Below, piece by piece: positions 1,527 through 44,564 of a DNA stretch of 64,000 bases. The stretch is taken from NCBI GenBank assembly GCA_903813345.2, contig CAIIXF020000001.1, positions 26,215,915 to 26,279,914 on the forward strand, given 5' to 3'. Below the pieces are notes generated by a model. The model made no database searches, was not told where the DNA came from, and was given only the letters and a program-made list of their open reading frames with translations. How positions within the stretch are numbered: the first letter of the stretch is position 1; each line of letters opens with the position of its first letter. Source of the stretch: Owenia fusiformis (lineage: Eukaryota > Annelida > Polychaeta > Sabellida > Oweniidae). The translations under genes were made by a program, and so were the position numbers.

Positions 1527-4500
1527 TGCTCAGTTTGGATAATTACACAGCACATTATGATGAGAAGTTTCACAGTTTACGAAGTGCCACGTTGAGGAAA
1601 CGTACCTCACTTGATCAGTTGACATCTGAGACAAGCACTGTGGTCAATGATGGCTACAACAAACAAGCCAAGGTTAGTAATCGTCCTTTTTATGTCTCCA
1701 TCACTATACTACACTGCTCTAAGATAAATGCCTCATCAGAATTCTATTCTCCTGTTTAATTACATTTAATGATTACCAGCTACATGCATTGTTATGTCAC
1801 CACCAAAAAGTGGTGACATATTGTTATGGTCTCCATTTTTTGTGACAGTGGTTGGCAATTGGTGTTTTGTGGTTGGCGGTCGGCGATTGGCGTCTGTAAC
1901 AAATTCTTACAACTTCCAATAACTTAACAAATACTGTTTAAACTGACTTCAATGTTTTTCAAAATCATGTTCAAGTTTTCTGAAGTTCAAATCTGACTTA
2001 AAATTTAAGATTTGACTTTCAATGACCTTCTAAAGGTCAAAAAGTGTCAAAAAGGTTTCAACTTTCTTCACATTGACCAATTTTTTTTAAAAATCATTTT
2101 CAAGATCTCAGAATGTCAAATCTGACTTAAGATTGAACTAATAGGTGGATTTGGTGTCAAGACGTTTCACCCCCTGGACGTTTCACCCCTAGACTGTTCA
2201 CTCCTTAGACGTTTCACCCCCTAGACATTTCACCCCTTAGACGGTTCACCCCCTAGACATTTCACCCCCTGGACATTTCACCCCCTATACATGTCTTAGG
2301 GGTGAAATGTCTAAGGGATGAAATGTCTAGGGGGTGAAACTTCTAGGGGTGAAACGTCTAGGGGATGAAATGTCTAAGGGATGAAATGTCTAGGGGTGAA
2401 ATGTCCAGGGGGTGAAATGTCTAAGGGGTGAAACATCCATGGGGTGAAACGTCCAGGGGTGAAACGTCTAGAAAGCGAACTAATAATATTGTGAGCAACT
2501 AGGTAGTGACATTTTGTCATGTTAATGCCTTTTTTTGTGTGTGGCGATTCATTTTCAAATTACTATTTCAAAAATGAATTAGAATACATTGGTAGAAAGT
2601 AAGTTATCAACCTGGTGGTGTTTTATAAAAGCCTGTCTTTTTATTTCACCACCACAGCATTTGATGTCTTATGGTCGGCATTCAGAGTTCGGCTGCATCT
2701 ATAACAAATAACAGATGGTGACTTTTTGCATGTCAATGCCTTGTTAAAAAAAATTACATGCATTATCAAAACACCAACATAATATTTTAAACAAATTTTT
2801 CCTACTGTTAAAAAGAATGATCAAGTTTAAGTAGTAATTTTGCAACTTTTTTATAGTGTGCCTCTAACAGTAGGAGGTTTTATTTTTGCTTGAAATGTTT
2901 TGCCATGAATATCCTGAGGCTGTAAATAACATTTTTCTGGTGGAGTGCACATTGACATTGCATTCCTTTGAAAAGTGTGCCCTAAAGTTGAATTTAAACA
3001 ATCTTTCAAATGATTATTCACACACCAAAAAAACTCTTGATTTCCTTTAGTCACATGCCAAGGAAGTGTGTAATTTTTATCGTTTTCACATTGGAAATTA
3101 GAAAACCTAGAGTGCACACATATTTTATTTGTTAAACATTATTGTTTGTTTTTAATAATCCTATCATTTCTAATGATAATGTTTATTGGATTTTGAAAGG
3201 AAATTGTTTACGAGTTTGGTGCTTCAATTGCATGTAATGCAAACTTAAGAGCATGAATGATAATCTGATAAAGTCATAATCATGGTTCAAACTTCTATTT
3301 AATATTTCCAGTTATCTTGGTTATAAATTAATAACTTGTATTATTGTTTACTTTTACAGAATATGTTGTCCAGATTGGGGAGCTGGGACTTCAATATGTT
3401 CCATTTAGATAAGCTCACAAATGGTAAGATTCAAAATTTATGTACCATAAATCCTGTGTTTATTGAACATTTTTTGCCAAGAAAAATGTTAAGCATCGGT
3501 AGGTGTTCACTTTAGAGAGGGTAATTTATACAGACGTCAATAGAGTATGTACAAAGGAATGGTGTCCACTAGAGGTTAGAAATTGGATTAATTAATTGAC
3601 ATTAGGTCAATTCATTGAATTTCTCCAAAATTATTCCAATGTTGTTAATTTTATCTATTGAATGGAGTCTAGAAAAAAGTCTGTTTTATAGTGTTAAGGT
3701 TGTATTTGGTGATCTAAAAAATATAAACTTTTGTTTCTAAAATGATGGGAAATTCAAATATTTGAAAATTATGAGACAAATGACTTTTTTTTAGTCACTT
3801 TTTTCAAAAAATGTCTTAGATTCTTTTTCAGGTCATGAAAAGTAATATTTGAATAATGAGACTATACTTTTCATGGGGCCTTTATGTCCAATGCCAAGGT
3901 GATCTTTTTTAATGAACTTGAACTCCTGAAATACTAAGTGAATGTAAATTATTGAAAAGTCACTCTCAAGACCAGTTGAACTTCGATCACAAAATATAAA
4001 ACAAATTACGCACATTACCGGCAAATCTCCAATATTTGACTTTCAAACTTGAAGAATCACTTTTTAACACAAGGTTTTTATTTCGATCAAACGTTACCTA
4101 TTACCTTTAAAAACAACAGAGACATCTGTATTACTTTTTCAATATTCAATATTAATCCACATATGATTATTATGAAATTTGGGAGGTTTTCATAAAAGTA
4201 CATTGCAACTGACATTCTAATTGGCTGCGATTAAATAATTTCTCCACTGAGATAATAGTTGTTATTGTAGGGAAAGTTAACCACATATTGCTTTGCATAT
4301 TCACTGGTGATCCACTCGATTACGCTGGTTACCGAAACGGCTCATTACGGTAACAAAATGTCGGAACATCGAGGGTATATATTTGCGAACAAATTGTACA
4401 GAAGACAACAGAATTGTTGATTTAGTTCCTCACTTAAGTTACATAAATGGTATTTCGAAAAAATGTTAAGATGTGTTTTTGTGAGAAAAAATTTCGTGGG

Positions 4501-7500
4501 GATTCTGCCTACAAAGCGTGAAATAAGGGAAAAAGAAAAATCGTACCTCTGACGTTACGACATTTTGTTACCGAAACGAACCGTTTTTACGTCATTAGAC
4601 ATTCAAAATTTGGTCAACTTGATATCATATTTGAGGTCTACATGTAAAAGTATATCTAGAAATATGGTTTTTATTAATCATCTGAAATTTTCTTTGAAAA
4701 TTTGAATTCTATGTTGGATAGACTGTATATTCACCATATCACAAACTTTTTTTTGTGTTGGACTTTGTTGGAATACTTTCTTTTATTGGATATATTTTCA
4801 TTTGTATAATTATCAGACACAACTGCACAAGGGTTATATGAAAATTGATCTACTAAAACTAATGATTATTCAAGCTTAGGTAACTTTCTAATATCCTGCC
4901 ATGTTATAAAGCTGTCATAATTTTACAATATTGTTAATTTTCCTCATAATGTGCATTGCCTATTTCTATGTCACCACTTTTTGGTGGTGACATAGAAATA
5001 GGCAATGCACATTATGAGGAAAATTATGGTCTCCATTTTTGTGGCGGCGGTTGGCAGTCAGCGGTTGGTGGTTGGCAGTTGGTGTCTGTAACAAATTCTT
5101 ACAACTTCCAGTAACTTAACAAATACTGTTTAGACTAACTTCAATTTTTTCAAAATCAACTACAAGTTTTCAGAAGTTCAAATCTGACTTAATATGTAAG
5201 ATTTGACCTTCAATGGTCTTTTTAAGGTAAAAAAGGTCAAAAAGGTCTTTTTTCAACTTGCTTCAAATTGACCAAATTTTTTTCAGTATAATCTTCAAGT
5301 TATTAGAAGTTCAAATCTGACTTAAGATTTGAGATTTGACCTTCAATGACCTACTCAAGGTCAAAAAAGGTCATTTTTCAACTTGCTTCAAATTGACCTA
5401 TTTTTTCAAAATCATCTACAAGTTCTCAGAAATTCAAATCTGACTTTAGCTTGAACTAATAATATTGTGAGCAACAAGGTGGTGACATTTTGTCATGTTG
5501 ATGCCTTGTCTAAAACGTCCAACAGTTCTGATTCTGTTTCATGATAAGCCTGAAATAATTAAGGATATCTAGTAATAATTTTTAAAAACTGGACATTTTT
5601 AATTAATGAATTTTGAGATTTCTGCATCTTAAATCCCAGTAACTTCTGTATTGGATCAAATGTTTTTTTTCAGATAATGAAATAATGAATGTGATTGAAA
5701 CAATGTGGCATGATTTTTTTTAAGAATTACTTCAACATTATCCACTCCATTCTTTGCTATCACTAATTTTTGAAATGTAAAGTGCAGTAGAAGTAAAACT
5801 AACATCATTCACAGTATACCATTACCATTAGTCAACAAGTAATGCCACTAGTCAACACTTAATTCTATAGAAATACCACAAAATGAGAAGGCGCATCCAG
5901 TTATTGATTGTGTAGTAGACATTTTAGTATTGGCATTAAGTTTTTTTTACATATACACGTACGTGTAGAAATAAGTTCAAAGCACTTATATCTAAAAATG
6001 AAAGTTTACTTTACTCAAGTACTATTATAATATACCGTTTGCTATTCAGTTGAGATTATTGATGACCCAAGTTCTATATATTAACACATGTCTTGGTGTG
6101 TATTAACACCATGGTCCTTTCAATTAGTTCAAAATGTTTGACAGGACAACTCTCAGAATATCCAGCTTGGGGGCATCCCAGAGTTCATATATGATATATA
6201 ATTGGTGATAGTGTCAAAGAACTCATCTTTTGATTACCAGTTTACCATTCAATAATAGTTACTAATAGATTTAAGGCAAAATGTTGACTTTGACTGATTA
6301 CTGTTTGGCATTCAGGATAAAAAAATCTATGAAGAAATTAAATGAATAATTTGTTGACAACTATAGCTACCTATTCGTGTTTGTGTCCTTGTATGGTGAT
6401 TGGTTACACCTAGCATCTAGGAAATTTTATATTTTATCTTTCAAAATACATAAATTTTGTCTTTTCATCATCTATTGGTACACATGTATAAAGGAAACAT
6501 CTGGATGTATTTCTTGAATTTCTGAGGATTGTTGGGAATGGTCTGAGTTACCAATCAAGTGCATCATGCCACCTATTGGTCAAAAATGTACCATTAATAT
6601 GTATTTTTATCTACCTGTATATTCCATCTACAAGTGTATGTATTTTTAAACACTGTATATTACATGGATCTTGTATAGTATAGTATCTTGTACAGTCCAA
6701 GAGACTGGCATGATGGAGTCAATAAAACATATATAATGGTTATAATACACAGGCATTTCACAATAAAATAGAGAATCTCATGATGGGAACACCCCCAGGA
6801 ACATCTTGCATGAATTACAATGATATCATTTTATAGTGAACAGTGGGAAAACAATCAATATTTTTGTTACAATTGAATTTTTTTTTTATTGCAGGTCAGT
6901 CACTGTATTATACAAGTCTGCAACTCTTTCAAGAATATGGACTCCTCAATGCCTTCAACATTGACATTATCAAGCTCATGAAATGTTTTTGTAAGTAGAT
7001 TGTTCTTAATTAGTAAACAAGAAAATCTTTGAGTTCCAAGGTGAATTCTGGACCAGCTTAGCTATGACCATACCAAGGTTGTCTGTCTGAGCTAGGTTAT
7101 TCATATTAGCCATTAAAATTTATTTTGAAATTTATTTTTGTTATTTCAAAATAAATCAAGATAATAAGACAATATATGATAAAGGAAGATTATTTTGTGT
7201 CTTGCGTTCTGCCTGAACCTAATTGTGCATGAGGTAATGTACAAACACTCACCAGGGGGAGACTTACAAACATGAGGTTCAAGGACATAAATATGATTTA
7301 GATATGTGCTTTATGGAAAGTATTGCTTTTTAGTGACTAAACTGTTTGCTTTTGTATTCTATTTGCCACATATGAGATAAGAAAAATTCCAAAAATTGAA
7401 GTAAAAAGGAAAATATGGTAATGTGAAAGTCTAGACAAGTCAGTGTGAGTCTAGATATCTGGAGAAATAGTTTGATCACAGTCTTGATTCGATACTTGAA

Positions 7501-10500
7501 ATATTAAAGTTGTTTTAAAGAAAACATTTAAATCATATAAATTGCAATTGTCAGTATTTGTTTAGTAGTTATTTATTGAGCTTACAAATGTCAGATCTAT
7601 GCCAAGGCTGAATTATTATTAGATGACTTGTTTCATTGTAAAAATCTTGAAACAAAGTCCTTATCTAGTTTCTCAAATAACCCACTTCCATTCAGATTAT
7701 TTCACAATTTTGTCAAACCTTGAAGGAACTTCCTTATTGTCCTGTTTTAATTTGATCAAATCCCTGACCCATCTTATATTGATTAGGATTCTACAGGGTG
7801 GGTAGAATGGTTAGTAGTACATTTCTGTGCTAAGATCCTCATGATTATAGCAGAACTATGTGTGAATGAAATACCAATAGATAGATGATCCAATTCCTCC
7901 TTAAAATTAAATGAAATGATTTTTTACTTTAGAACTAGGCATTTAACACAACATTTATGATGTTTGAAGTCTGGTTGTTAAGCAAATTTTCTATGGTGCT
8001 TAGAAAATCATAAAATTAAAAAATGATGTGATGTATTATTTCATTGGAAATTAAATTACTTTTCCAATGGTATATCATTCATGCATAGTTCTGCTATTAT
8101 TAGGATATGATTAGGATATCCTGAATAAGAACTGTACTTCTTTTTTCTGACCTACCCTGTATATGTGCATACATATTAAAGTTATCACTTGTTTCAAGGC
8201 AAAAGATTAAATCAACTTCCTCGAATAAGCAACTGAATAAATCATTGAGTATTATTTCAAACTTATTGTGAATATTGGAAACATGTCATTTTGCTCTACA
8301 AAATGAACATGGATGATCATCTGACATAGTTGCTCCATTATTGATATCAATTCATTGTTGCTTTTTCATGAATATTTCACTGGTCCTGCCTTTTCATAAA
8401 TATTCTTTCATTTGTCCCCATACATTCTCAAAAGACACCATGAAAACGAAAGCATTTTTTCGATTTATTCAAAACAGGTTTTTTCCAACTGAGTAATATG
8501 AGGAATTACTACTCATAAGACATTTTGTATGACTTGAAAAGATTGGCAATTGGCGTGGGTATATATATATAGAGAAAATGATTCTTGTATCTTTCAGGTG
8601 TATTTAGATTCATTCTAAATGCTGTTATAATTGTTAAACTTCAATTAATTCGCAGTAGATTTCGATTGCTCCTTGACACTGGTGTTAGAGATAAGATTCT
8701 ATGTGGCTTGAAGTACAATTCAATTTATCACTTGTTACAAGTGGAATTCACTACCTAAGTTTCATATCATCTCATCGAGTTAATTCAAATTTTTGCATGT
8801 ATGTTAACTAGTGCTGCCATCTTTCAATGATGTACATAACTGAAATGGTAAATGTGTAATATTGTTCTTATTTTCTGAAATAGGGCAACAGTTCAGTGGT
8901 TTCTCATCCTTAATATATCAATATAACTCTGTGGAAGAGCATTTCTCCTGAAATGCAATGACCATAGTTTGATCCCTGGTTCATGGCAAAACTACTTTGG
9001 CTGTTGTGTTAAGTGATTAAAGGTGTTTCACAGAGATATCCACAGTTTGTGCAATTTGTATGTCCGTTTGTTACTTGCACATGGAATAAGACAGGGCTCT
9101 TTGAGGAGAGATTTCTGTGTCTGTCCTTCTATGATTTTTGGAATCATTGTAGTAGCCTTCTATAAATTATTGTGAATCTTACAACTGCCTTGCAAAAATG
9201 ATATACATTCATACATAAACCAGAATTGTAAAGTTCTGTGTGAACATACAATATCCCCAAACTAATTGTTATTCCAATCTTTATTGTAGCTTCGATTGAG
9301 ACGGGTTACCATAGCAACCCATATCATAACTCTGTCCATGCGGCTGATGTTACTCAAGCTATGCATTGCTACCTCACTGAAGACAAGGTAAGAACCATTT
9401 ATAGTGTATGAGAGACCATAAAGAGTGTACAAGGGACTGTAGTTGGGGAACTATAATAGATAGAGCGAAGCAACGTTTGATCCATTTAGATATGAGGGGA
9501 TGGCCAGGACAGTGTTTATTATTGGTTGTTAGATGTTAAACTGTGACTTCTTAAAAATGTGCTTTGATATCCATGTAGGCTTTGTAGATGTAGATAGTGA
9601 AAGCAAATATATAATATAAATAAACCATACAAATACTTTGAAAAATTTTGAAACATATTTCCTTATCCAACCATCCAAGTTCCATTGTGCATGTAAAGTG
9701 TACTGCATCTGTATCTGAACTGTATATACTTAGCTGTATATGTGTCGTAGTCGACTGTTCACTTGACTCAAGACTATTAAACTGCTTTTCAATCAACAAA
9801 TTAAAAATTATGATTCCAGGTAACCAGAATATATTGTATGCCATGTATAAGTGTGTACCATTGTTTTAGATGTGTTTTTACAGTCCACTAGAGAAGATGG
9901 CAGCTCTAGTGGCAGCTATGACACATGATCTAGATCATCCATATATTATATGCCATGTATAAGTGTGTACCATTGTTTCAGATGTGTTCTTACAGTCCAC
10001 TAGAGAAGATGACAGCTCTATTGGCAGCTATGACACATGATCTAGATCATCCATATATTATATGCCATGTATAAGTGTGTACCATTGTTTCAGATGCGTT
10101 CTTATAGTCCACTAGAGAAGATGACAGCTCTATTGGCAGCTATGACACATGATCTGAATCATCCATATATCATATGCCATGTATAAGTGTGTACCATTGT
10201 TTCAGATGTGTTCTTACAGTCCACTAGAGAAGATGACAGCTCTATTGGCAACTATGACACATGATCTGGATCATCCATATATTATATGCCATGTATAAGT
10301 GTGTACCATTGTTTCAGATGTGTTCTTACAGTCCACTAGAAAAGATGACAGCTCTATTGGCAGCTATGACACATGATCTAGATCATCCATATATTATATG
10401 CCATGTATAAGTGTGAACCATTGTTTCAGATGTGTTCTTACAGTCCACTAGAAAAGATGACAGCTCTATTGGCAGCTATGACACATGATCTGGATCATCC

Positions 10501-13500
10501 ATATATTATATGTCATGTATAAGTGTGTACCATTGTTTCAGATGTGTTCTTATAGTCCACTAGAGAAGATGACAGCTCTATTGGCAGCTATGACACATGA
10601 TCTGGATCATCATATATTATATGCCATGTATAAGTGTGTACCATTGTTTCAGATGTGTTCTTACAGTCCACTAGAAAAGATGACAGCTCTATTGGCAGCT
10701 ATTACACATGATCTGGATCATCCATATATTATATGCCATGTATAAGTGTGTACCATTGTTTCAGATGTGTTCTTACAGTCCACTAGAGAAGATGACAGCT
10801 CTATTGGCAGCTATGACACATGATCTGGATCATCCATATATTATATGCCATGTATAAGTGTGTACCATTGTTTCAGATGTGTTCTTACAGTCCACTAGAG
10901 AAGATGACAGCTCTATTGGCAGCTATGACACATGATCTGGATCATCCATATATTATATGCCATGTATAAGTGTGTACCATTGTTTCAGATGTGTTCTTAC
11001 AGTCCACTAGAGAAGATGACAGCTCTATTGGCAGCTATGACACATGATCTGGATCATCCATATATTATATGCCATGTATAAGTGTGTACCATTGTTTCAG
11101 ATGTGTTCTTACAGTCCACTAGAGAAGATGACAGCTCTATTGGCAGCTATGACACATGATCTGGATCATCCATATATTATATGCCATGTATAAGTGTGTA
11201 CCATTGTTTCAGATGTGTTCTTACAGTCCACTAGAGAAGATGACAGCTCTATTGGCAGCTATGACACATGATCTGGATCATCCAGGTGTTAACCAATCAT
11301 TCCTAATAGCCACCTCCAATCATCTGGCAGCTCTTTACAAGGTAGGGAACATTTTCCATAATACAGAACAGAGTATTTCATAATGACCATCCCCCATCAA
11401 CCACCAATCCTAAATAGATTGACGTGATGGGGGACAGCCATACGCCATGAAACACCCTGTAGTATGTACGTATATTACTTTAACTATAGACAGAGTATAT
11501 GGAATTTTGAACTTTATATACACGTATGTGGACTTCTTTGAAAACATGTTTGTGGTATAGTTGATAATTCAGTATATAATTCTTACAAAAGTTGTTCACA
11601 ATCCCACTTCTCTGATGGCTTTATCAAACACTAAATATATGCATGATGCATGCTACATCTATTCAAACATTAAGTCAATTTACAAGTAAAGGTTTCCATT
11701 GATTGGCTTCTTTGACAGATGATCTTTGAGGTCCAAACAAAATATAGTCTTGGAATGCATCAAGTTGGTAATATTACTTTGTTAAGTGCACAGCTATCTA
11801 AATCATTATTTGTTTTATATAATATATGTATTTCATGCATTGATTGTTGAATTATTTGATTCATTTTGTTTTAGAACCAGTCTGTGCTGGAGAATCACCA
11901 TTGGCGTTCTGCTATTGCAGTGATACATGAGTCAGGGGTATTTGACCATCTTCAACCAGAACAATGGTATGCTTGCTATTTCTTCAAAGTAGAAATTTTG
12001 TATATTTAAACAAATAGTTTATGAGCACATTTAAAATGTCAAACCACCATCCATTTTCTCTGTTCTATAAAATTATGAAATCTTAGTATTCAATTCAATT
12101 AGCCTTAGACCTTTCCGATAAACCCCGTCAACTTTTGGTACATCATAGAAACTATGATATATTGGCTAAATTGATGATTGGTTGTAGGTTGCAATTTGTC
12201 CAATTGAAACTTGGGCCTACTGCATTAACTTATTAATTTTGAAAAGTACAACCTATGACAGCACTGATCTAGCTAATATATCATAGCTTCTTTGATCTAC
12301 CAAAAGATGGCAGTGTTTATTAAAAAGGTCTATTAACACTTTGCAGTGAACAATTAACACTTTAACGGTGTGTTTAGTATGTGCTATAATAACAGAATGA
12401 TTATCTTGTCATTACAGGAGTAGTGTAGAGTGTCAGTTGAAGTCTCTCATCTTAGCTACAGATATAACCAGACAACAGGAGTTCCTCACTAAGTTCAGGG
12501 TATGTTGCTTTATTTTCATAAAGCCACCTCTGTTTGGATGAGTCACAAGCAATTCAGACCAACTGATTGGTAAATTTATTTTAAAACATTGCTAATAGCA
12601 ATTAGCAGTCTTAAAATCTCCCAGGGACTTTGTACATGAAAAACTGCTTTCAACATTTATTTACTGTCCTTCCACTTAATTTGGCGACTATTGTTAAAGT
12701 CTGCCAAATTTAGTAGCCGCCAAATTCAGTATTTCATATTTCAATCGTAAAGTATGGTATATACATTTCAATTGCAAGTCCGCAAAATTAAGTAGTTGTC
12801 AAATGTTCAAAACACCAAATCCACCAAAATAAGTAGCACCAAATTAAGTAGAAGTACAGTATGGAATTTGAAAAAACAGTTTATTGTGCGAGGACATTGT
12901 TTCCTGTAATTGCAATCAGGTGGTGACACCTTTTTGCCTGCGTTATGTATAATAGGCTGTTGAATTTATAACATCTCCCTGATCCCAATAACAGCTATTG
13001 AACAATAGGGTACATTTTCACCCAAAATAAAGAAAATTATGAAAAATGTTTTTACTATTTTTATGTCACCACCATCATTGTTGACATATTGTTATTGTCT
13101 CCAACTTTTTTGTGGCGGTGTTCAGAGTTTGACTTTTGGTGTTTGGCATCAGTAATACATGTAACAAATGGCAGGTTGTTACATTTTGCATTTTGATGCC
13201 TTGTATTTATTTGTTTTGTGTTGAAATTTTACAGCAGCATCTGGACAATCAGGATCTAGATCTTCCAAACAATGAACAGCACCGGCATTTTATTTTACAG
13301 GTAAGCATTTCATTTTACAGAAGAACATTATCATATTACAGGTAAACATTTTACGACACGTAATATGAATTCATTTTATCAACCTTTCCAAGCTCAGTCC
13401 TTCAAGTTATGATAGATGTAATTAATTTATTTTCATTTAAATTATTGAAAAACATATTGCTTTTGATATGTATAAAGTATTGTATAAAATCATGGATTTC

Positions 13501-16500
13501 GTAAAAATTTCATGATCCCTTCAAAGACAGTATTGCTATATTATTCTCCACTCTATAGAATTTCAAAGGAAATCACAAATTCCAAATGGCTGCCTACAGC
13601 ATGAATTCGCTATAATTAAGAGATCTGTCCAAAATATAATTACATTATCCTATATCTCAAATAACTCTCAAATATTGTTTGCAAATAAGGGTAGAGTGTA
13701 AATATATTGTGACATACAGTATAGAGATTTATGTATATTTTGTTTGTTTGATGGAGTCTGTAGAGTCGCAATTTTTCTAATTGAGCTCATAATTACCTCT
13801 TCTTCACACACCATTGTTTGTCACAAAATTCTACCATATAGTTTCCCAATACATCACTTCGATGTTATGTTTGAATCGATATAAACATATTCTTTGTACA
13901 CTTTCCTTTATCTTGACATGAAATAAGGAGCTATGATGTTGGTAAATGCTCCAGAAATATAAATTAAATTATTCGAAGCATTTTTACAAAATTTGGAATC
14001 TGCCTTTTGTTTCTGTCAGCTCCCAATCAGTAAATGTCATTTAACCAATCAGGGTCAAGAACATAGTTGGGTTGTGTCAGTCATAGACCAATAAATGGGC
14101 TTTCATTTGTAGTTACATCACAAGAAAGTTAATTTGTCATCATTGATGATATTTAAAGCTGTAATCAATTTCATAAGGCCACCACCATTTAACACATTCA
14201 TTTATTCCAAAAATCATTGTTTCTTTTTTGCCCCTATTGAGCAAAATATATTCAGAAAAGCTAGACATAACAAATTTTGTACTTAAAATGAACTTCCAAT
14301 TTTAACAAGCAGGATGTTTTTGATTTACTTAATCAAAAAACATATTTTTTCCTCAAAAATGAAAAACAATTTTTTGAAATTATTTTGCTGTACTAATATT
14401 AGACCACACACTGTTTGTGTTAATTAAACATAAGTTTTTGAACTTTTATTATCTGTCTGTTTGTTGGTGATCTGTCTGGTTTCACTTTTAAAATGTGACT
14501 ATAATATAAAATCTTCAATTGTCCTTTAAGTCCTGTGTCTCAAAAGCTCACCTCATTCACTTTACAAATAGGTTTAGGGCTTCAGAGTGTTGCATTAGGG
14601 GGTATCTCTGCAGTCATTATAGGATATCCTATGACTTTGAGGAATATCTTATTTTAACGTATTTTATCTACGAGGTGATATTGATATCTGCACGAGAGAG
14701 CAAAGCGAACGAGTGCAAAATCAATATCACCGAGTAGATTAAAATTATATTCTGAAAAAAATCATAGGATGTTCTTATTATCCTACACTTACAAGGAGTG
14801 TACTAAATGTATAATATCATTGCAAAATGAATTTCATGCCAAATAGAGTCAATTTGGCGGGAAATCAACAAGCGGAGTATATCGTCACACTATCCTCCGC
14901 ATATTGGGTTTTCCGGAGTATATTGTCACGATATCCTCCGCCCGGAGTATATCATCACGATATCCTCCTGTTATTCATTTTGCCAATAGATATCAAATTT
15001 TTTTTTAATGTTATTATACATTTAGTACACTAAGTGTAGGATAATAGATTATATCAACTTGATATCAACACAGCAACAAAATTCAATACTCTCTTTAGGT
15101 GCCAAGATCTGATTAGGTTTGAGGCATGCTGGGTAAATTACTTGGCAGTCGTTTTGAATTTTTCCATAAATCTTGTCATCAGTATTCCTGGAAAACTTGC
15201 ACTTATCCGTTAAACTTGAAAATTTTACAGATGGAAGAGCAGACTATTGCCAAGATTTGATTAGGTTTTGGGCATGCTGGGTAAATTACATGGTGATTAT
15301 TTGGTCTTCAAAGTGCGATATTTATCACCGTGTGTCTTGTTAGTTTATGATCTCCGTAGAATATAGAAAATATTGTACCCTACAAAGTCTGTTTCATATT
15401 TGCTATATTTGGTTTTAAAATGTGTTTTCAACTGGAAATGATGACTTGCCAAAGCATGTGATATAGTGATGTCCAGCTCATTCTTGATTCTGTAGCTCAT
15501 GCAGTGAAAAATACATGATATATTTAGTTATTTACATCACATCGGCCAATCAGATCATTTGGATTTCACTGTCATTGAATTAAAACCAATATTAACTAAT
15601 TTGTGTGACGGTTTTAGCTATAAATGGAAAAATGGCCACAAATTTAAATTGTACTATTCAGACAAAATCATCAAATGGGCCTAATGACGTATGCATTCTT
15701 CTAGCTGTGAACTACTATTAGAGCTTTTTGAATGTTTATTAGAGCTAATGAATGCTAATTACCTCCTGATACACCACCCTGGGAGATGATGTCAATATTT
15801 CATGTTCATATTTTTTTTACTAATGTAATTTAGATGGGAATTGATATGATTTAGCTAGCATTCGCGAAAGCAACTTCTGGTTGCAGGATTAACCTATTAA
15901 TATGCATAAATGAACATAAATGAAGTTGAAATGACAAACAACTCTCTAGTCATCTCACAGTGATCATGTGACTCTTTATGCAATTGTAACATCTATGTGC
16001 TAAATGTACTTCTCCTCTAATTGCAATACTGAATACATCCTTAGTCGGTGTTAGTTGCTGCTTAAAGGCAGATTAAACCATTATTTAGGTGACCTATTGG
16101 GCTTGACGTGGTAGCTTGCAGCTTCTGGAATTCATGGCAGGTTCATACCTGTATGTAAATGATTAGGTCATCCAATTGCAGTACACCTGTAGTTGGCAGT
16201 TGCATTCGTGAATGCCACCTCAGTTCAATAATATTTAGTCCAATGACCTTAATTTGAATGGTGTTTGTTTGTAGATTGCCCAAAAGTGTAGTGTTTGTTT
16301 GTAGATTGCCCTAAAGTGTGCTGATATATGCAATCCATGCAGGAACTGGGACCTCAGCCAAAAGTGGAGTACATCTATATGTCAAGAGTTCTTTCAACAA
16401 GGTTAGTGTCCTATGAAGAAGATGAGGAATCATACAAGTGATAATAAACATGAATACTTGTTCTATATATTTAAGGAATAAAGACCGATATTTTATGATT

Positions 16501-17271
16501 TATGGCGTAATATATGACTGAAAATTTTATTCTGTTCATTGTTAACCCTTTCCCGACGTGAATATAAGAGGAAAATGTTGGCCCTGGTGACGGATAAGTA
16601 AGAGCAGATTTTAGGGGAAAACTGAAAATTACCTATGCCCAGGGACCTATAACTTGAATTTTATGCACTGAAATACATTTTTTAGTAAGGACTATCGTAT
16701 TAGAACAACTTGTCAAAATTTGGTGTAAAAATACTGAATAGAACTGGAGATATTATCATTTCATCGATGTATATAAATAAAAATTATGGTGCCAAAAGGA
16801 GCCTATCGTCCTGAAAGGTATTACATAATAGGGCACCATATGGAGCCCATCGTCGTGAAAGGGTTAAAAGACCAAATTGTGTAGCGATTGAGGTCTTTGG
16901 CAATGCCCAGAATCAAATTTGAGGCCCAATCTCCATATAATATATGGGAGGTCGAAAAAACTGAATTTTCCCTCATTTTGAGATCTCTCCAATTATTTTA
17001 CTCAAATCATAGTAATTTAAGAGTATTGTCTTGTCTTTATAATCTGTGCCTATGATTTTCTACTTTGAACATAGATCTGTACCCACTGTATGTGAGATAT
17101 TATGTTATTCATTTGATCAGAATGAATGATTTTACATTGATTTTTCACCTTCAAATCTTCAAATCGTTATATATTGGAAATGTTTTGCAGGTGACATTGA
17201 GCGAGAGCTAAATATTCCTGTGACGCCTTTCTGTGATAAGTTGTCAACTACAACAGCAAAGATACAAGTGG
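1527..17271 (+). CDS. PDE7: PDE7-type cAMP phosphodiesterase, partial (10 exons)
   Basis: Hydrolyses cyclic AMP in the cytosol; PDE7 is the cAMP-specific, rolipram-insensitive branch of class I phosphodiesterases. Exons: 1527-1672, 3360-3423, 6895-6990, 9290-9387, 11213-11341, 11875-11966, 12418-12499, 13235-13300, 16305-16401, 17191-17271. Phases close across all joins and give about 317 residues. Recognisable stretches are [42 protein letters not shown] (the YHN catalytic His and HxxxH metal site), [11 protein letters not shown] (metal site), [39 protein letters not shown] (metal Asp) and QEFFQQGDIERE. These follow vertebrate PDE7 almost residue by residue. The N-terminus lies upstream of the window. 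The last exon, expected to continue after 'IQVG', was not found and may be in the gap at 17501-18000 or beyond. Exon 8 starts at a NAGNAG acceptor, so one Gln is optional. Family assignment is firm; the upstream boundary of the first exon is less sure. Confidence 0.93.
1793..2545 (+). mobile_element. Interspersed element with GTCACCACC hairpin end, copy 1
   Basis: Begins with a small palindrome (ATGTCACCAC, loop, GTGGTGACAT), followed by TTGTTATGGTCTCC, a GGTTGGC-rich stretch and alternating TTGACCTT/TCAAGTTC segments. It ends GAGCAAC..GGTAGTGACATTTTGTCATG. It matches 4970-5515 closely. A separate fold-back element is inserted into it at 2144-2476. Related fragments are at 2640-2745, 13055-13205 and, inverted, 62516-62640. 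I do not recognise a named family. Confidence 0.75.
2144..2476. mobile_element. Fold-back minisatellite element with 9-bp target duplication
   Basis: About eight units of (GACGTTTCACCCCCTA) are followed after 2290 by about eleven units in reverse complement (TAGGGGTGAAACGTC), so the 333-bp segment can fold into one long hairpin. It is flanked by direct repeats GAACTAATA at 2135-2143 and 2477-2485. The paralogous repeat at 4970-5515 has one uninterrupted GAACTAATA at 5453-5461, so it serves as an empty site. Confidence 0.85.
4327..4590. repeat. Inverted repeat CGGTAACAAAATGTCG
   Basis: A 16-bp sequence near 4356 recurs in reverse complement near 4558, each next to ACCGAAACG. The elevated CpG relative to the surroundings suggests a small element. 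A truncated copy of the GATGCGAGTAG family follows at about 4609-4930. Confidence 0.45.
4609..4930 (+). mobile_element. Truncated copy of the GATGCGAGTAG MITE family
   Basis: Shares, in order, ATTTGAGGTCTACATGTAAA, TCTAGAAATATGG, TTTTGTGTTGGAC, ATATTTTCATTTGTATAATT, ATCAGACACA and CCTGCCATG with the complete copies at 42721, 48047 and 63568. Both terminal inverted repeats are missing or decayed. Confidence 0.6.
4935..5026. repeat. Perfect 92-bp palindrome (43-bp arms, 6-nt loop)
   Basis: Arms 4935-4977 and 4984-5026 are exactly complementary, with loop TTTTTG. The centre is the GTCACCAC/GTGGTGAC hairpin end of the interspersed element. The outer parts (CATAATGTGCATTGCC and complement) look like an inverted copy of flanking DNA. 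Confidence 0.93.
4970..5515 (+). mobile_element. Interspersed element with GTCACCACC hairpin end, copy 2
   Basis: Colinear with 1793-2545 without the fold-back insertion: hairpin end, TTATGGTCTCCATTTTTGTG, GGTTGGC runs, repeated TCAAATCTGACTTA and TTGACCTTCAATG blocks, and a GAGCAACAAGGTGGTGACAT end. It lies in the PDE7 intron between 3423 and 6895. Confidence 0.75.
5520..6890. other. PDE7 intron sequence, nothing recognised
   Basis: AT-rich intron between repeat copy 2 and exon 3. It contains no long ORF, repeat array or RNA gene that I can support. Confidence 0.6.
6991..9289. other. PDE7 intron sequence, nothing recognised
   Basis: A 2.3-kb AT-rich intron between exons 3 and 4. Short ORFs here (for example 7623-7805) have no recognisable family features. 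Confidence 0.6.
9824..11284 (+). repeat. 112-bp tandem array of a PDE7 splice acceptor plus partial exon, 13 acceptors
   Basis: Thirteen copies of an intron end (about 40 nt closing in TTTCAG) followed by the first 72 nt of PDE7 exon 5. Exon copies begin at 9870, 9982, 10094, 10206, 10318, 10430, 10542, 10653, 10765, 10877, 10989, 11101 and 11213. Spacing is 112 bp, except one 111-bp unit that lost a C near 10610. Only the last copy runs on into the rest of the exon and a good donor at 11342. Each earlier copy reads ...[13 protein letters not shown]-stop. The first copy is the most diverged (TTTTAG acceptor, KMAALVAAM). Copy 3 has D to N in the metal motif, copy 4 has A to T, and copy 9 has M to I. 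High identity between copies points to recent amplification. Confidence 0.95.
12108..12330. mobile_element. MITE with about 65-bp imperfect TIRs, TA target
   Basis: The left end GACCTTTCCGATAAAC.. and the reverse complement of the right end GACCTTTTTAATAAAC.. stay alignable through CTTTTGGTA and CTATGATATATT. TA is present on both sides (12106-12107 and 12331-12332). The element sits in the PDE7 intron between exons 6 and 7. Confidence 0.75.
12662..12861. mobile_element. Short MITE with TACTGT..ACAGTA ends
   Basis: The left end TACTGTCCTTCCACTTAATT and the right end (reverse complement TACTGTACTTCTACTTAATT) form about 23-bp TIRs with two mismatches. The interior repeats AAATTAAGTAG-like words. 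It lies in the PDE7 intron between exons 7 and 8. Confidence 0.7.
13055..13205 (+). mobile_element. Fragment of the GTCACCACC-hairpin element
   Basis: ATGTCACCACC..TTGACATATTGTTATTGTCTCC at the left and GTTACATTTTGCATTTTGATGCCTTG at the right match the two longer copies with most of the interior deleted. It ends about 30 bp before PDE7 exon 8. Confidence 0.65.
13286..13345 (+). repeat. Local duplication of the PDE7 exon 8 splice donor
   Basis: The exon 8 end CATTTTATTTTACAG|GTAAG is followed by two diverged copies, CATTTCATTTTACAG|AAGAA and CATTATCATATTACAG|GTAAA. The third restores a potential donor about 40 nt downstream, which would shift the frame if used. Confidence 0.65.
14619..15043. 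mobile_element. Bipartite palindromic element, copy 1
   Basis: The first part (14619-14775) is a hairpin: GGATATCCTATGA..GAATATC..GGTGATATTGATAT..TGCAC with its complement after an AGAGAGCAAAGCGAACGAG loop. The second part (14779-15043) has TIRs TATCCTACACTT..GTGTACTAAATGTATAATA. Between the TIRs are three near-palindromes of the form CGGAGTATATCGTCACGATA..CCTCCG. It is nearly identical to 41143-41550. It lies in the PDE7 intron between exons 8 and 9. Confidence 0.85.
15101..15295 (+). repeat. Direct repeat of about 45 bp, 148 bp apart
   Basis: GCCAAGATCTGATTAGGTTT and GGCATGCTGGGTAAATTAC occur at 15101-15145 and again, with a few changes, at 15249-15295. The rest of this intron (15300-16260) shows nothing I can name. 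Confidence 0.6.
16261..16320 (+). repeat. 30-bp tandem duplication of the PDE7 exon 9 splice acceptor
   Basis: 16261-16290 and 16291-16320 are near-identical. Each holds GTTTGTTTGTAG followed by the first 16 nt of exon 9. The second copy gives the frame used in the model ([11 protein letters not shown]). The first acceptor, ending at 16274, would add 30 nt in frame ending in TAG directly before the normal exon start. Confidence 0.9.
16546..16863. mobile_element. piggyBac-type MITE with TTAA target duplication
   Basis: Termini CCCTTTCCCGACG and, inverted, CCCTTTCACGACG. Immediately outside are TTAA at 16542-16545 and 16864-16867. CCCT-type ends with a TTAA target are the piggyBac superfamily hallmark. 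There is no transposase ORF. It lies in the last visible PDE7 intron. Confidence 0.8.
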
Positions 17272-17317
17272 GTAGGTATATTGGTGTGATAAAAATGGTT
17301 GACTACAAATAATATAC

Positions 17318-18307
17318 TTAAACATAGCATTGATCGAGTTTGGCCCAAAGGTCACAAATCAAATCTATCTCATGATTCCTAGGCAGCCAGTACCATTTGA
17401 TCATCGTGTGGTCTTCAAACATATCCAACGTATATGTGTCTGACCATGGAATATTCTTGGTCTTGTGTAGAAATGATTTCTCTGGCTTACTGCTACCATG
17501 NNNNNNNNNNNNNNNNNNNNNNNNNNNNNNNNNNNNNNNNNNNNNNNNNNNNNNNNNNNNNNNNNNNNNNNNNNNNNNNNNNNNNNNNNNNNNNNNNNNN
17601 NNNNNNNNNNNNNNNNNNNNNNNNNNNNNNNNNNNNNNNNNNNNNNNNNNNNNNNNNNNNNNNNNNNNNNNNNNNNNNNNNNNNNNNNNNNNNNNNNNNN
17701 NNNNNNNNNNNNNNNNNNNNNNNNNNNNNNNNNNNNNNNNNNNNNNNNNNNNNNNNNNNNNNNNNNNNNNNNNNNNNNNNNNNNNNNNNNNNNNNNNNNN
17801 NNNNNNNNNNNNNNNNNNNNNNNNNNNNNNNNNNNNNNNNNNNNNNNNNNNNNNNNNNNNNNNNNNNNNNNNNNNNNNNNNNNNNNNNNNNNNNNNNNNN
17901 NNNNNNNNNNNNNNNNNNNNNNNNNNNNNNNNNNNNNNNNNNNNNNNNNNNNNNNNNNNNNNNNNNNNNNNNNNNNNNNNNNNNNNNNNNNNNNNNNNNN
18001 CTTTATATTTATGAAACCTGGCGTGCAATTGCAAATGGTCTTTAGCCAAGCGAAGCCGGTCAGGTTTGATAATGTTTTGTGCAGTGTCATTCGTGACTGT
18101 TGGGTCCCTTGTGTCAACATCGTTTACATTAGGTCTTGGGATGTTACGATTGGTGTTTTCCATACTTGTATGCATATTTGATCTAACGTCTGATTGTAGC
18201 AAAGCCACTTTAATGGAATGGAGTTCTTGTTTTTCTTTATGGCCAGGTGCTCTCTTTAATTCGCTTGTCATTTTGGATTTTATTTTAGCACATGTTACTC
18301 TGTCCAT
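17318..18307 (-). CDS. Putative protein, ORF interrupted by the gap
   Basis: An ORF reads towards lower coordinates from ATG at 18307, about 102 codons before the gap, and then about 60 codons from 17500 to a stop at 17318. The N-terminal part is polar and basic (KIKSKMTSELKRAPGHKEK). The C-terminal part contains NIPWSDTYTLDMFEDHTM and a Trp-rich KWYWLPRN segment. Base composition is less AT-rich than the neighbours, which favours real coding. I do not recognise the family, and the frame link across the N run is only assumed. It could be an intronless gene, a retrocopy or a transposon protein. Confidence 0.35.
   Translation of the reverse strand: MDRVTCAKIKSKMTSELKRAPGHKEKQELHSIKVALLQSDVRSNMHTSMENTNRNIPRPNVNDVDTRDPTVTNDTAQNIIKPDRLRLAKDHLQLHARFHKYKXXXXXXXXXXXXXXXXXXXXXXXXXXXXXXXXXXXXXXXXXXXXXXXXXXXXXXXXXXXXXXXXXXXXXXXXXXXXXXXXXXXXXXXXXXXXXXXXXXXXXXXXXXXXXXXXXXXXXXXXXXXXXXXXXXXXXXXXXXXXXXXXXXXXXXXXXXXXXXXXXXXXXXXHGSSKPEKSFLHKTKNIPWSDTYTLDMFEDHTMIKWYWLPRNHEIDLICDLWAKLDQCYV
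17501..18000. other. Assembly gap (500 N)
   Basis: Exactly 500 N, so probably a placeholder rather than a measured length. Sequence joined across it cannot be trusted to be in frame or adjacent. Confidence 0.99.
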
Positions 18308-23984: not shown

Positions 23985-26900
23985 GGAGCAAAAGTCCAAA
24001 TAAGAGGTTCCGTGTCCTTTTTAGAGGCGAGCTAAGCGACATATGTTTTCATGAACTAGAAGTGATACTGATCAAGAAAAATGATGTTGGCAATTCTGAA
24101 TCCGCGACGGCGTTGCTATGGTAACCAAGTAAATATGCCACGCCCACTTTTAAGGGCTCTTTTCAGTGTATGGCCCCTATCTCTGTCATTATTGCTCAGA
24201 TTTAGATGGAATTCACACCAAATGGAAGGTAATGGATAATGCAATCAGGAAATATCAAGTTGGCAATTCTGAATCCGATATGGCGTTGCTATGGTAACAA
24301 AGTAAATATCCCACACCCACTTTTAGGGGCTCTTTCCAGTGTTTGGTCTATATCTTCGTCAATATTGCTCAGATTTAGGTGAAATTTGAACCAAATGAAA
24401 GCTAATGGAAAGAGCAATCAAACAGTTTATAAAATATGCAAATAAGGTGATTTGCATATTACTTATGACGTCATAACCGTTTGTTCTTGCATATTTTATT
24501 TTAATCATGATGTATAAATCTGGAAAATTAATATCTTTAAAAGGGTCAGTAATGCTTTTAAGTAGTTAATTAGTTTATTTCTTTTCATTGAGTTTATTAG
24601 TTTATTTCATTCATACATGTATGGTCATAAATAATTGAAAAAATGTAAAGAAAATATCGAATTCAAGTTGTTGCTATGGTAACGGTATGTTGCAAAACTA
24701 TCTGCTGTAAAAATAATTCTTTGGGAAATGTTACATTTTGACCAGTTGACTGACATGTATTCCTTCTAAAATTTGATGGCAGAGAATAACCTAATAATGA
24801 TAGAAAATTATCTAATTTGGATTGCGTTATATTATGATGTCATAATGGCAATTATTAATCAGGGGCGCAGCCAGCTTTCAATCAGGGGCGCAGTCAGCTT
24901 TCAATCAGGAGGGGGTTGCGATCTCGGCATAAGCAACTCAAAAAATGTTTAATTTGTCTCGGATTTTACAAAAATTCCTTCAAAATTGAGCTAGAAGCTT
25001 CAAGTCAAAAGCATTTTAAAGCTCTCCTTCTCTCTAATGGTTCTATTTTTACTGGTTAAGGGGGAGGTGGGTAGCCCCCATCACACCCCCTGGCTATGCC
25101 TATGATAGCTATGGTATTCCCGTGAATATGCCGTCCCCAATTTCAGGTCTTTTCCAAAGTTTTGATTCTATCAGTTGTCATGATGATAGCTCTGGTGTAT
25201 ATGAAATTTTCATCAAATCGGAAACTAAAGAATCAGACATTGCATGGGGAATGTCGATTGACAGACTGGCATACCTGTTATGGTATGAATACCATAGCTG
25301 TTTCGTGATTATTTTTTTGAAATAAGGTAAAATTGCTCAAGATGATTCCAAATTGGTATCGAGTCCTTTGACATTCACCATAAAATTAGGTCAAAGCTGA
25401 AAACTATAATTGATTTTCATTCTATTTCTTTACACATATAAAGTATGATCAAGAAATATCATGGGCAATTCTGAATCTGCGAAGCCGTTGCTATGGTAAC
25501 CAAATAAATATGGCATGCGCATTTTTACGGGCTCTTTTCAGTGTTTCAACCCATCTGCACCATTATTGTTCAGATTTTGATGAAATTCAGACCAAATTGA
25601 AGGTAATAGATAATGCAATCAGGAGATATTAAGTTGACAATTCTGAATCAACGATGGCGTTGCTATGGTAACAAAGTGAATATGCCCCACCCACTTTTAG
25701 GGGCTCTTTTCAGTGTTTTGTCCTCATCTTCTTCATTATTGTTCAGATTTAGATGAAATTTGCTTTAAATTAAAGGTAATAGATAGAGCAATCAGACAGT
25801 TAGTAAGCTATGCAAATAGGATGATTTGCATATTGATTATGATGTCATAATTGTTTCTTCTTGCATATTTTATCTTAATCACGATGTATTTATCTGTGAA
25901 ACTATTGTCTTTAAAATAGTCAGTAATGCTTTTAACTAGTTAATTAGATTAGATTTCTTTTAGTTGAGTTTATAATTTTATTTCATTCATACTTGCATGG
26001 TGATAAAAACTGAATAAATCTAAAAAATGTGATGAAAATGTCCAATTTATGCTGTTGCTATGGTTACAGCACAAAGCAAAACTATCTATAGTTAAAAGAA
26101 ATCTTTAAGAAATTTTACATTTTGACTAGTTGACTGACACATGTATTCTTTTTAACATATGATGACAGAAAATAATCTTGTAACTATAAAAAATTATTTA
26201 CTTTGGATTGTATTATATTATGATGCCATAATTGCAATTATTAATCAGGAGTGCAGCCAGTGTTCAGTCAGGACAGGGGGGGGGGGGGGTGCAATCGTGG
26301 CATAAGCAACCCCAACATTTTTTAAGATTTGTTTTGAATTTTACAAAAAAACTGAGCTAGAAGCTTTAAGTCAAATTGATTTTAAGGCTCTTCTTCTGTT
26401 TAATGGTTCTATTTTTTGTTTATGGGGGCGCACCCATCGCACCCCCTGGCAATCCAATATGATGTTGCTATGGTAACTAGGTGAATATGCCATCCTCACT
26501 GTTCAGGGGTTTTCAAAAGTTTTGCTTCTATCTTTGTCATGATTACAGCTTGAGGGTATATTAAATATTCACCAAATTGTAGCTAAAGATTCAGGCAATG
26601 CATGGATTATGTCGATTGACTGACTGGCATACCCATTGTCGCAGTAACTGCTGCTAATGGTTTTGAAATCCGAAAAATATGTTCAACGTCAATTTACATA
26701 AAAAATAATATCATTTTATGGTATTGGTCAATACTATAGCCTATTTCATCTTTTTAGGTCATGTAGACATAACTGCTGTACCAATTTTGAACCGAATGGT
26801 TGGATGTCGGATTTCAAAACCAAAAGCATATTTGAAATCAAGGGCTTCCATACTTCATACTTGTAAAGAAATGGAATCAATCATAGTTTTCCACTTTGAC

Positions 26901-28470
26901 CTCATTTTATGGTGAATGTCAAAGGACAAGGTTCCAATTTGGAAACATTTGGAGCAATTTTACCCTTATTTCAAGATATAATCACAAAAAGCAGCTATGA
27001 TGCCATAACGGGTACTGTACTCCTGGTATTTTTCGCCTGCGATTTAGTTTCGTGCTTGTTAAAATCGCAAAATTAATCTTTGCGAAATTGTCAATTAAAT
27101 CCCGGGGATTTGTTCAATTTATGATTACATTTCGTGTTTTGTAAAATGTTTGTCAAGTGTTTTTAGGCGATTAATGGGATAGTTAGTACTAATTTATGTT
27201 ACAGTGGAATCATTTTGAGCAATTTTACCTTATTTCAAGAAAATAATCACAAAAAACAGCTATGATACCATAACAGGTACTTAGTATGTCAGTCTACATT
27301 ATTCATGTATTGTCTGATTCACCTAGCATATTCACCTAATGGTTACCATAGCAACATCATATTGGATTAACATAGGCAGTGCTTAGGGTTGTGGGGGTGC
27401 GCTGGGTTCACCCATCCCCTCATAAACAATAAAAATAGAACCATTAGATAAAAGAAGACTTTCGACTTGAAGCATTTTGCTAAATTTTGAAGGAAGTTGT
27501 ATCAATTTTTGTAAAATTCAAAACCTATCTTTATTAATACTTTTGGGTTGCCTGTGCCACGATCGCAGGCCCCCTTCTGACTGAAAGCTGGCTGTGCCCC
27601 TGATTAAAAATTGCCATTATGACTTCATAATATAACACAATCCAAATCTAATAACTATGGTTATTAGATTTTTTTCTGTCATCAAATTTTAAAAAGAATA
27701 CATGTCAGTCAACTGGTCAAAATGTAATATTTCCTAGAGAAATCTTGTTTACAGCAGATAGTTTTGTTACATGCTGTCACCAAAGCAACAGTGTGAATTG
27801 GACACTTTCATTATATTCATTCAATTTTTATGATTATAGATGTGTGAATGAAAAAAACGAATAATCTCAACTAAAAGAAATAAACTAAACGAGTTATTAG
27901 CATTATACTGACCATTTTAAAGACAAGAATTTCCCAGAATTATACATTATGATTTAAATGAAATGTGCAAGAACAAACAGTTATGACGTCATAGTTGAAA
28001 TGCAAATCAGCATGTTTGCATATTTTAAAAACTGTCTGATTGCTCTATCAATTACCTTTAATTTGGTGCAAATTTCATCTAAATCTGAGCAATAATGACA
28101 AAGTTAGGGCCGAAACACTGAGAATAGCTCCGAAAAGTGGGCGTGGCATATTTACTTTGTTACCATAGCAACGCCATATTGGATTCAGAATTGCCAACTT
28201 AATATTTCCTGATTGCATTATCCATTACCTTCAATTTGGTGTGAATTTCATCTAAATCTGAGCAATAATGGCAGAGATAGGGGCCATACACTGAAAAGAG
28301 CCCTTAAAAGTGGGCGTGGCATATTTACTTGGTTACCATAGCAACGCCGTCGCGGATTCAGAATTGCCAACATCATTTTTCTTGGTAAGTATCACGTATA
28401 GTTCATGAAAATATATGTCGCTTAGCTCGCCTCTAAAAAGGAAACGGAATGACCTTTGCTCCCATACTAC
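23985..28470. mobile_element. 4.5-kb repeat complex: two direct copies and one inverted copy
   Basis: Copy A (about 23985-25420) and copy B (about 25440-26650) are direct repeats. Copy C (about 27300-28470) is the reverse complement of A, down to its outer end (CTAAGCGACATAT / ATATGTCGCTTAG). Shared landmarks are CGTTGCTATGGTAACCAA, TTTTCAGTGT, GATTTGCATATT and TTGACTGACATGTATTC. Each copy contains two internal versions of a GGCAATTCTGAATCC..GCTATGGTAAC block. No transposase ORF was found. A separate CpG-containing segment (GTATTTTTCGCCTGCGA) lies between B and C at about 27030-27150. Confidence 0.75.
24861..25108. mobile_element. GGGGCGCAGCCAGC-type insertion, one of five
   Basis: Ends GGGGCGCAGCCAGCTTTC and CCCCTGGCTATGCC are inverted. 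Relatives are at 26250-26450, 27385-27600 (inverted), 52635-52755 and 63055-63283. This end sequence is common in animal MITEs, often attributed to hAT. I cannot see a clean 8-bp target duplication here. Confidence 0.5.
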
Positions 28471-35297: not shown

Positions 35298-36086
35298 ACA
35301 TGTAAGTCACAATTCACTAAAAATAGGATTTGCTGATCAATTTATGAAAGATACCCAATATGTAACTTCACAAGTCATAATAGCTCTCAATTTCATTTAG
35401 TCTTCGATTGATCTTCCTCGGATCTGTGCCATCATTCGTGATTTATTTTATATTCAACTTATCTTAATATAATGTTAACCTTTTTGTGTGAAAATGAAAA
35501 GATACATAATTTAACTCACAAATCTAAACATGCGATAGCGAATGTTAAACTTTATAGTAGCATATATGTGAGTGTCCAATGTCTTGGCTCACCTTGTATG
35601 GTATAATGGTTCATCATATTTGAAAAAAAAACATTCAATGTCAATATATCATACTACATTTACTACCTTCAACATAAGAAGAATGCAAGGTATCACGAAT
35701 TTTGTTAAAATAATCTTCATTTGACGTCACAAGTTAGAATTACTCTCGGCATACCTGTCGCCATAGATTGGTTATCCCTGTTGCGTTTAGATCACCGCAT
35801 CGAGTATCTATTAGTGTTATTGGAATATTCTCCAAGAGACTGCAAAGCTTTAGTTAGTACTTACTGGTGACATCTCACTGAAAGGTAGTAATAAAGGTTA
35901 TTACGGAAGTAGGATACAATGTCGTCCATATAGATGCTTATCTCCAGAAGTGACAAAAATAACATGATTTCATGCATTCGTTGATATAACAATACACAGA
36001 AGAAAGCCGTATAATTCTATCTAATTCTAAGTGTTACTTTAGATAAATAGACAAACTTGTAATGCGAATAAAAAGCGGGGGATACA

Positions 36087-44564
<8,478 letters not shown>

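Follow-up and report, generated by a model that had tools for sequence, protein, structure and literature searches.

The window analyzed here, 64,000 nucleotides of the genome of the annelid Owenia fusiformis (assembly GCA_903813345.2, contig CAIIXF020000001.1, positions 26,215,915 to 26,279,914; coordinates below are those of the window unless another stretch is named), carries a PDE7 phosphodiesterase gene in which thirteen near-identical splice acceptors stand in tandem before a single donor. We consider it quite probable that this array is a "mirage", a near-neutral homogenizing minisatellite whose surplus copies would leave the transcript along with the intron. Arrays across splice boundaries, not described for annelids in the open-licence literature searched, are common in this genome.

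Anatomy of the PDE7 acceptor array

Tandem Repeats Finder (TRF) run on the window reported an array at 9829-11284 on the plus strand, the strand of all PDE7 features given here, with a period of 112, 13.0 copies, 97% matches, and a score of 2765. In the 112-bp unit, the last 40 nt of the intron are followed by the first 72 nt of the coding exon. An earlier reading of the letters (the sequence-only reading) had described such a unit, with thirteen acceptors ahead of one donor, and both TRF and our table of the copies agree with it. The acceptors lie at 9870, 9982, 10094, 10206, 10318, 10430, and 10542 (copies 1 to 7) and at 10653, 10765, 10877, 10989, 11101, and 11213 (copies 8 to 13), with a spacing of 112 throughout except for one interval of 111, and the only donor after the array is the GT at 11342. 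The AG is present in 13 of 13 copies. The acceptors had been called near-identical, which is correct for the AG, whereas the hexamer is TTTTAG in copy 1 and TTTCAG in the other 12. A TTACAG also occurs 14 nt deeper in the exon, but it is out of frame, and TTTCAG was therefore taken as the acceptor.

The exon directly before the array (9290-9387, placed by sequence and frames) ends in phase 0 with donor GTAAGA. Donor 9388 and the in-frame acceptor 11213 would delimit an intron of 1,825 nt (9388-11212) that holds the 12 upstream copies. Acceptor 13 alone gives an open exon (11213-11341; 129 nt, 43 codons), which consists of copy 13 plus the exon body and matches human PDE7A, bearing out the earlier claim that only the last acceptor yields an enzyme. 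All 12 upstream acceptors lead to an in-frame TAA. In 11 of them the reading ends HPYIICHV, with the stop six codons after HP, whereas copy 7 (exon part 10542-10612) has lost one base of a CCA codon and its frame runs into copy 8 before meeting the same TAA. Copy 3 reads THDLNHP, a D to N change in the metal motif. The statement that every upstream choice reads THDLDHP and then stops within six or seven codons thus needs correction for copies 3 and 7.

Judged by its nearest relative among solved phosphodiesterases (best 60 of 151 matches) and by the presence of the metal motif, the gene is PDE7, the identity proposed from the letters. The joined exons of the window match human PDE7A with an E value of 1.8e-87 over all 247 query residues, and the next family among those matches is PDE4A at 8.4e-45.

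Relative to the consensus, changes were found at 5 of 520 intron sites and 15 of 936 exon sites, plus one deletion. As the exon part changes as freely as the intron part, no constraint is visible on the upstream copies. Copies 9-13 are identical to the consensus and copy 1 is the most diverged (six changes; exon part 9870-9941), whereas most of copies 1-8 carry their own sets of changes. The absence of changes in copies 9-13 indicates that the block on the exon side spread recently. A DNA search of the assembly (498.3 Mb in 525 contigs) with the unit gave 13 matches among the best candidates scored, and because all 13 fall inside the PDE7 array, no second haplotype was seen.

Arrays across splice junctions elsewhere in the genome

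Two samples of the same genome were taken by exon density before any repeat search was done: 16 stretches of 10 kb with all 53 matches to PF00233 (phosphodiesterase, PDE) outside the window, and 17 stretches that cover 70 of the 92 matches to PF00063 (myosin head), 261.5 kb in total. TRF and reading by eye revealed 14 more arrays that cross a splice junction, six at acceptors and eight at donors, in 7 of the 16 PDE stretches and 4 of the 17 myosin stretches. In each of the 14 the exon body stands at one end of the array and the extra copies fall in the intron. Amplification of a splice site to such a copy number had been thought unusual; for this genome it is not, because these 14 arrays were found, and the kind had already been named mirages.

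The acceptor arrays (L numbers denote sampled stretches) are L009:7271-7785 (87 bp, 6 acceptors), L022:4734-5255 (83 bp, 6.3 copies by TRF; accepted on the basis of an exon found by hidden Markov model (HMM) and of the sequence), L017:6129-6436 (103 bp, 3 acceptors), L034:3019-4089 (91 bp, 12 acceptors), L034:5427-6523 (260 bp, 4 acceptors), and L038:836-1108 (61 bp, 5 acceptors). The donor arrays, with TRF copy numbers, are L020:6463-6965 (42 bp, 12.1 copies), L023:5313-5468 (54 bp, 2.9), L024:7351-7646 (59 bp, 5.0), L024:9866-9962 (31 bp, 3.1), L019:3899-4999 (64 bp, 15.8 in 3987-4999), L027:4165-4300 (34 bp, 4.0), L029:3156-3321 (41 bp, 4.0), and L034:2290-2881 (83 bp, 7.2). Some of these exons are outside the HMM list. 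The L017 exon is supported by PDEase_I at 2.6e-6, the L024:9866 exon by PDEase_I at 0.0024, and the L029 exon by Myosin_head at 0.0022, the last two values being below the cut-off. Two L034 exons outside the list gave no myosin match singly, and when joined matched myosin-Ic weakly (E 0.0024). A candidate at L026:2612-2730 was rejected since no exon is there, and L024:5155-5376 and L020:3436-3868, which are near exons, were not accepted as boundary arrays. A second five-copy block of the 59-bp exon-end/donor unit lies at L024:8721-9015, about 1.1 kb downstream of the first, and was left out of the count.

Boundary arrays were more uniform than the other arrays of the sample (median 95.5%, n = 14, versus 86%, n = 39; P = 4e-4), a comparison to be read with the caveat that decayed boundary arrays are harder to recognize. 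The consequences of misreading differ among arrays. In every array checked, the reading was begun at the final two upstream acceptors: L017, both L034 arrays, and L038 met early stops, whereas L009 stayed open and in frame throughout the part read, with 29 residues added per copy. Donor arrays read past their first donor met a stop within 1-23 residues in seven cases, and L020 was open for 144 residues. Because the frame outcomes differ in this way, one common regulatory purpose is unlikely.

Frequency compared with random placement

Among exons listed by HMM, a boundary array is present on 6 of the 52 PDE exons (after merging) and on 3 of the 70 for myosin, together 9 of 122; these counts exclude the PDE7 array of the window and five further boundary arrays, whose exons the HMM list does not contain. 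Under our main null model, in which the single unit of each array is dropped at random on the collapsed sequence, 1.65 are expected for PDE, 1.47 for myosin, and 3.12 for both (Poisson P = 0.007, 0.18, and 0.005, respectively). The PDE set thus accounts for the excess, which in the myosin set alone is not significant. L034:2290-2881 entered this null with a period of 248 rather than 83, which raised the expected number slightly. Under a cruder null, with whole arrays shifted at random within the 16 PDE stretches, no excess at exon edges is shown (6 crossing an edge versus 3.36 expected, P = 0.10), and 3.26 covers of a whole exon were expected where none was observed. We judged the second null less apt because an array that grows would not overwrite an exon. 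That splice junctions hold more arrays than random birth would give is therefore suggested, not settled.

A stronger statement would be that tandem amplification is directed at splice junctions genome-wide, that several per cent of exon edges carry near-identical splice-site arrays, and that the splicing machinery reliably takes the copy beside the exon body. We regard this as possible but doubtful. Were it true, the PDE7 array would rank among thousands of natural experiments on how splice sites are chosen, and such arrays would be a standing stock from which longer introns, new introns, and isoforms could arise.

A probable near-neutral mirage

A mirage of this kind would have originated by tandem duplication of a segment that took in 40 nt upstream and 72 nt downstream of the 3' splice site, followed by growth and homogenization, probably via unequal exchange or slippage. 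Joining of the 9387 donor to acceptor 13 would make all extra copies leave with the intron, as the exon body stands only at the right end of the array. Acceptor 13, paired with the 11341 donor across a 129-nt exon, should prevail over the upstream acceptors, which lie 241 to 1,472 nt from that donor. If an upstream acceptor were chosen, the frame would stop early, ahead of further introns, and nonsense-mediated decay would be expected. The rules of exon definition and nonsense-mediated decay applied here are general knowledge. The anatomy, the conserved catalytic exons, the lack of visible constraint on the upstream copies, and the many independent arrays of this kind in the genome are observed, whereas the acceptor used, the decay of mis-spliced RNA, the neutrality, and the mode of growth are inferred. 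TCCAGG and TAACCA, separated by a 3-nt gap, occur at both ends of the repeated segment; 1.0% of 19,871 random pairs match as well, so that the likeness hints only weakly at the origin of the first duplication. Folding of ten units as single-stranded DNA (the PDE7 unit and nine others) gave z-scores of -1.02 to 1.85 and thus no special stability, and a hairpin explanation was therefore rejected.

Several points weigh against a near-neutral mirage. All 13 acceptors retain the AG, the local site gives number 13 no advantage, and its use is predicted from frames and position. Every upstream choice stops, as a splicing brake requires, although an intron tail read as exon often stops. Moreover, the possible excess of boundary arrays (9 versus 3.1) would mean more than blind neutral birth. 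Of the three readings offered from the letters (a brake, a source of truncated proteins, and a neutral satellite), the last is nevertheless the best supported, given the unconstrained upstream copies and the 14 other junction arrays. Donor scores from an approximate weight matrix also speak for it: the best GT within the array reaches 0.75 bits, as against 7.09 and 4.89 for the flanking donors at 9387 and 11341.

The alternative that survives best is the brake, in which the upstream acceptors would be poison exons and their regulated use would lower PDE7 output via nonsense-mediated decay. Retention of the AG at 12 of 12 upstream acceptors, the TAA behind each, and the further PDE7 introns downstream are what such a brake would need, but the constraint expected of a poison element is not seen within the array, where exon and intron parts change alike. 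Like arrays are also found on donors as well as acceptors of other PDE and myosin genes and in mixed frames, including the open L009 and L020. The brake is without positive support, and we consider it improbable.

An assembly artefact, the true locus having one or few copies, is less probable still. The number of copies 9-13 does rest on the assembly, these copies being identical, but copies 1-8 differ from the consensus, most of these copies by a set of changes of their own, and similar arrays stand at many other places of the assembly.

The copies might instead be hidden cassette exons, each unit using a cryptic donor (CAT|GTATAAG) to form an 87-nt in-frame exon of 29 codons that would place repeats before the metal motif. 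The frame arithmetic allows this (72 nt plus 15 nt ends ahead of the TAA), but that donor scores -2.02 bits on the same approximate matrix and the intron between neighboring copies would measure 25 nt. We find cassette exons very improbable. Equally hard to credit is a useful truncated PDE7 ending in HPYIICHV after the metal motif, which upstream acceptors would indeed encode, since most of the catalytic domain would be missing and the upstream copies are without visible constraint.

Relation to known systems

Mirages were named in amphioxus as minisatellites at exon/intron boundaries (BflGb6, BflGb9, Adh3, troponin C, and PGBD5; PMC3087553, PMC3902484), PGBD5 being added in the second report, which cites Adh and troponin C. 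In the passages of PMC3087553 drawn on here the units are 10-160 bp, and the authors state that the Adh3 data and their own reverse transcription-PCR suggest that regular splicing is undisturbed. The PDE7 array has the same features: its unit of 112 bp spans a boundary of a real gene, the AG is kept in all copies, and the edge copy is diverged. As in the amphioxus acceptor-side cases described there, the unit comprises intron end and exon start, with splice signals in the copies. The homogenized core and excluded edge of BflGb6 (PMC3087553) resemble the identical copies 9-13 and diverged copy 1 of PDE7. The differences are that BflGb6 is a cephalochordate gene that has 6 and 3 units and for which RNA data point to normal splicing, whereas PDE7 is an annelid gene with 13 copies, known from sequence alone, and that for the annelid arrays the frequency was measured across two gene families. 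In the open-licence literature searched, mirages are named for amphioxus only and none is described for annelids.

Three further systems are related, as far as the sections cited describe them. Internal tandem repeats of human segmental duplications (PMC2812944) are likewise boundary-spanning minisatellites able to alter splicing, but are mostly of ~30-bp units in recent primate paralogs, some of them creating new introns or alternative transcripts. In the Rogers model of intron gain (potato RdRp, PMC4974935), exon sequence with splice signals is likewise duplicated in tandem, and the TCCAGG and TAACCA at both ends of the PDE7 segment are a further resemblance, whereas in PDE7 an existing intron grew and no new intron is shown. 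The earthworm metallothionein gene (PMC12783039), also from an annelid, has intronic minisatellites and exon-4 duplications that are absent from the transcript; in the sections cited, no splice junction is described as repeated in tandem.

In PDE7, thirteen near-identical acceptors compete in a natural gene, with parallel acceptor and donor cases in the same genome, and in two of these (L009 and L020) misreading would leave the frame open. Work on how one of several near-identical splice sites is chosen usually relies on engineered duplicates. Exclusive use of the exon-proximal copy, if true, would support exon definition from a natural case. With arrays at 9 of the 122 exon matches sampled, outside amphioxus, the growth and gain of introns through duplication of a boundary could be measured across populations and haplotypes.

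Remaining PDE7 exons and other features

The PDE7 exons that follow the array are at 11875-11966 (31 residues) and 12418-12499 (27 residues), both placed by sequence and tblastn. Searching by tblastn with the conceptual PDE7 protein of the window placed an upstream exon with an open frame at 6894-7001 and a downstream one at 13241-13309, and tblastn also gave exons at 16281-16403 (33 residues; PF00233 match G000:C1:26232192-26232320) and 17190-17273. The ends of these four are approximate. The catalytic exons were traced to about 17273, and the region 17493-18013 reads N.

Other repeats were seen in passing. A 42-bp array of ~47 copies lies in a PDE stretch (L021:7286-9268). In the window, a 162-bp array of 8.2 copies (59250-60585) is close to a MutS domain V exon on the minus strand (58690-58971), and similar-looking two-copy arrays of period 172-173 are at 24071-24421, 25466-25795, and 28036-28371, the consensus units of the first two containing GTTGCTATGGTAACAAA; these may be one dispersed repeat. 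Beside a myosin gene, G000:C9:37986009-37994334 has twelve consecutive matches to myosin head model positions ~18-84, possibly alternative exons. The window also has a guanylate cyclase gene fragment (Guanylate_cyc, HNOBA) at 36072-37592 and a THAP-domain frame at 54030-54602. A search of the assembly for COX1 found none. PF16915 (annelid erythrocruorin linker) gave three matches over the cut-off in the assembly and none in 14 controls, which say little because the control genomes named are prokaryotes; one of the three exons matches hemoglobin linkers in the PDB (best E 0.0022).

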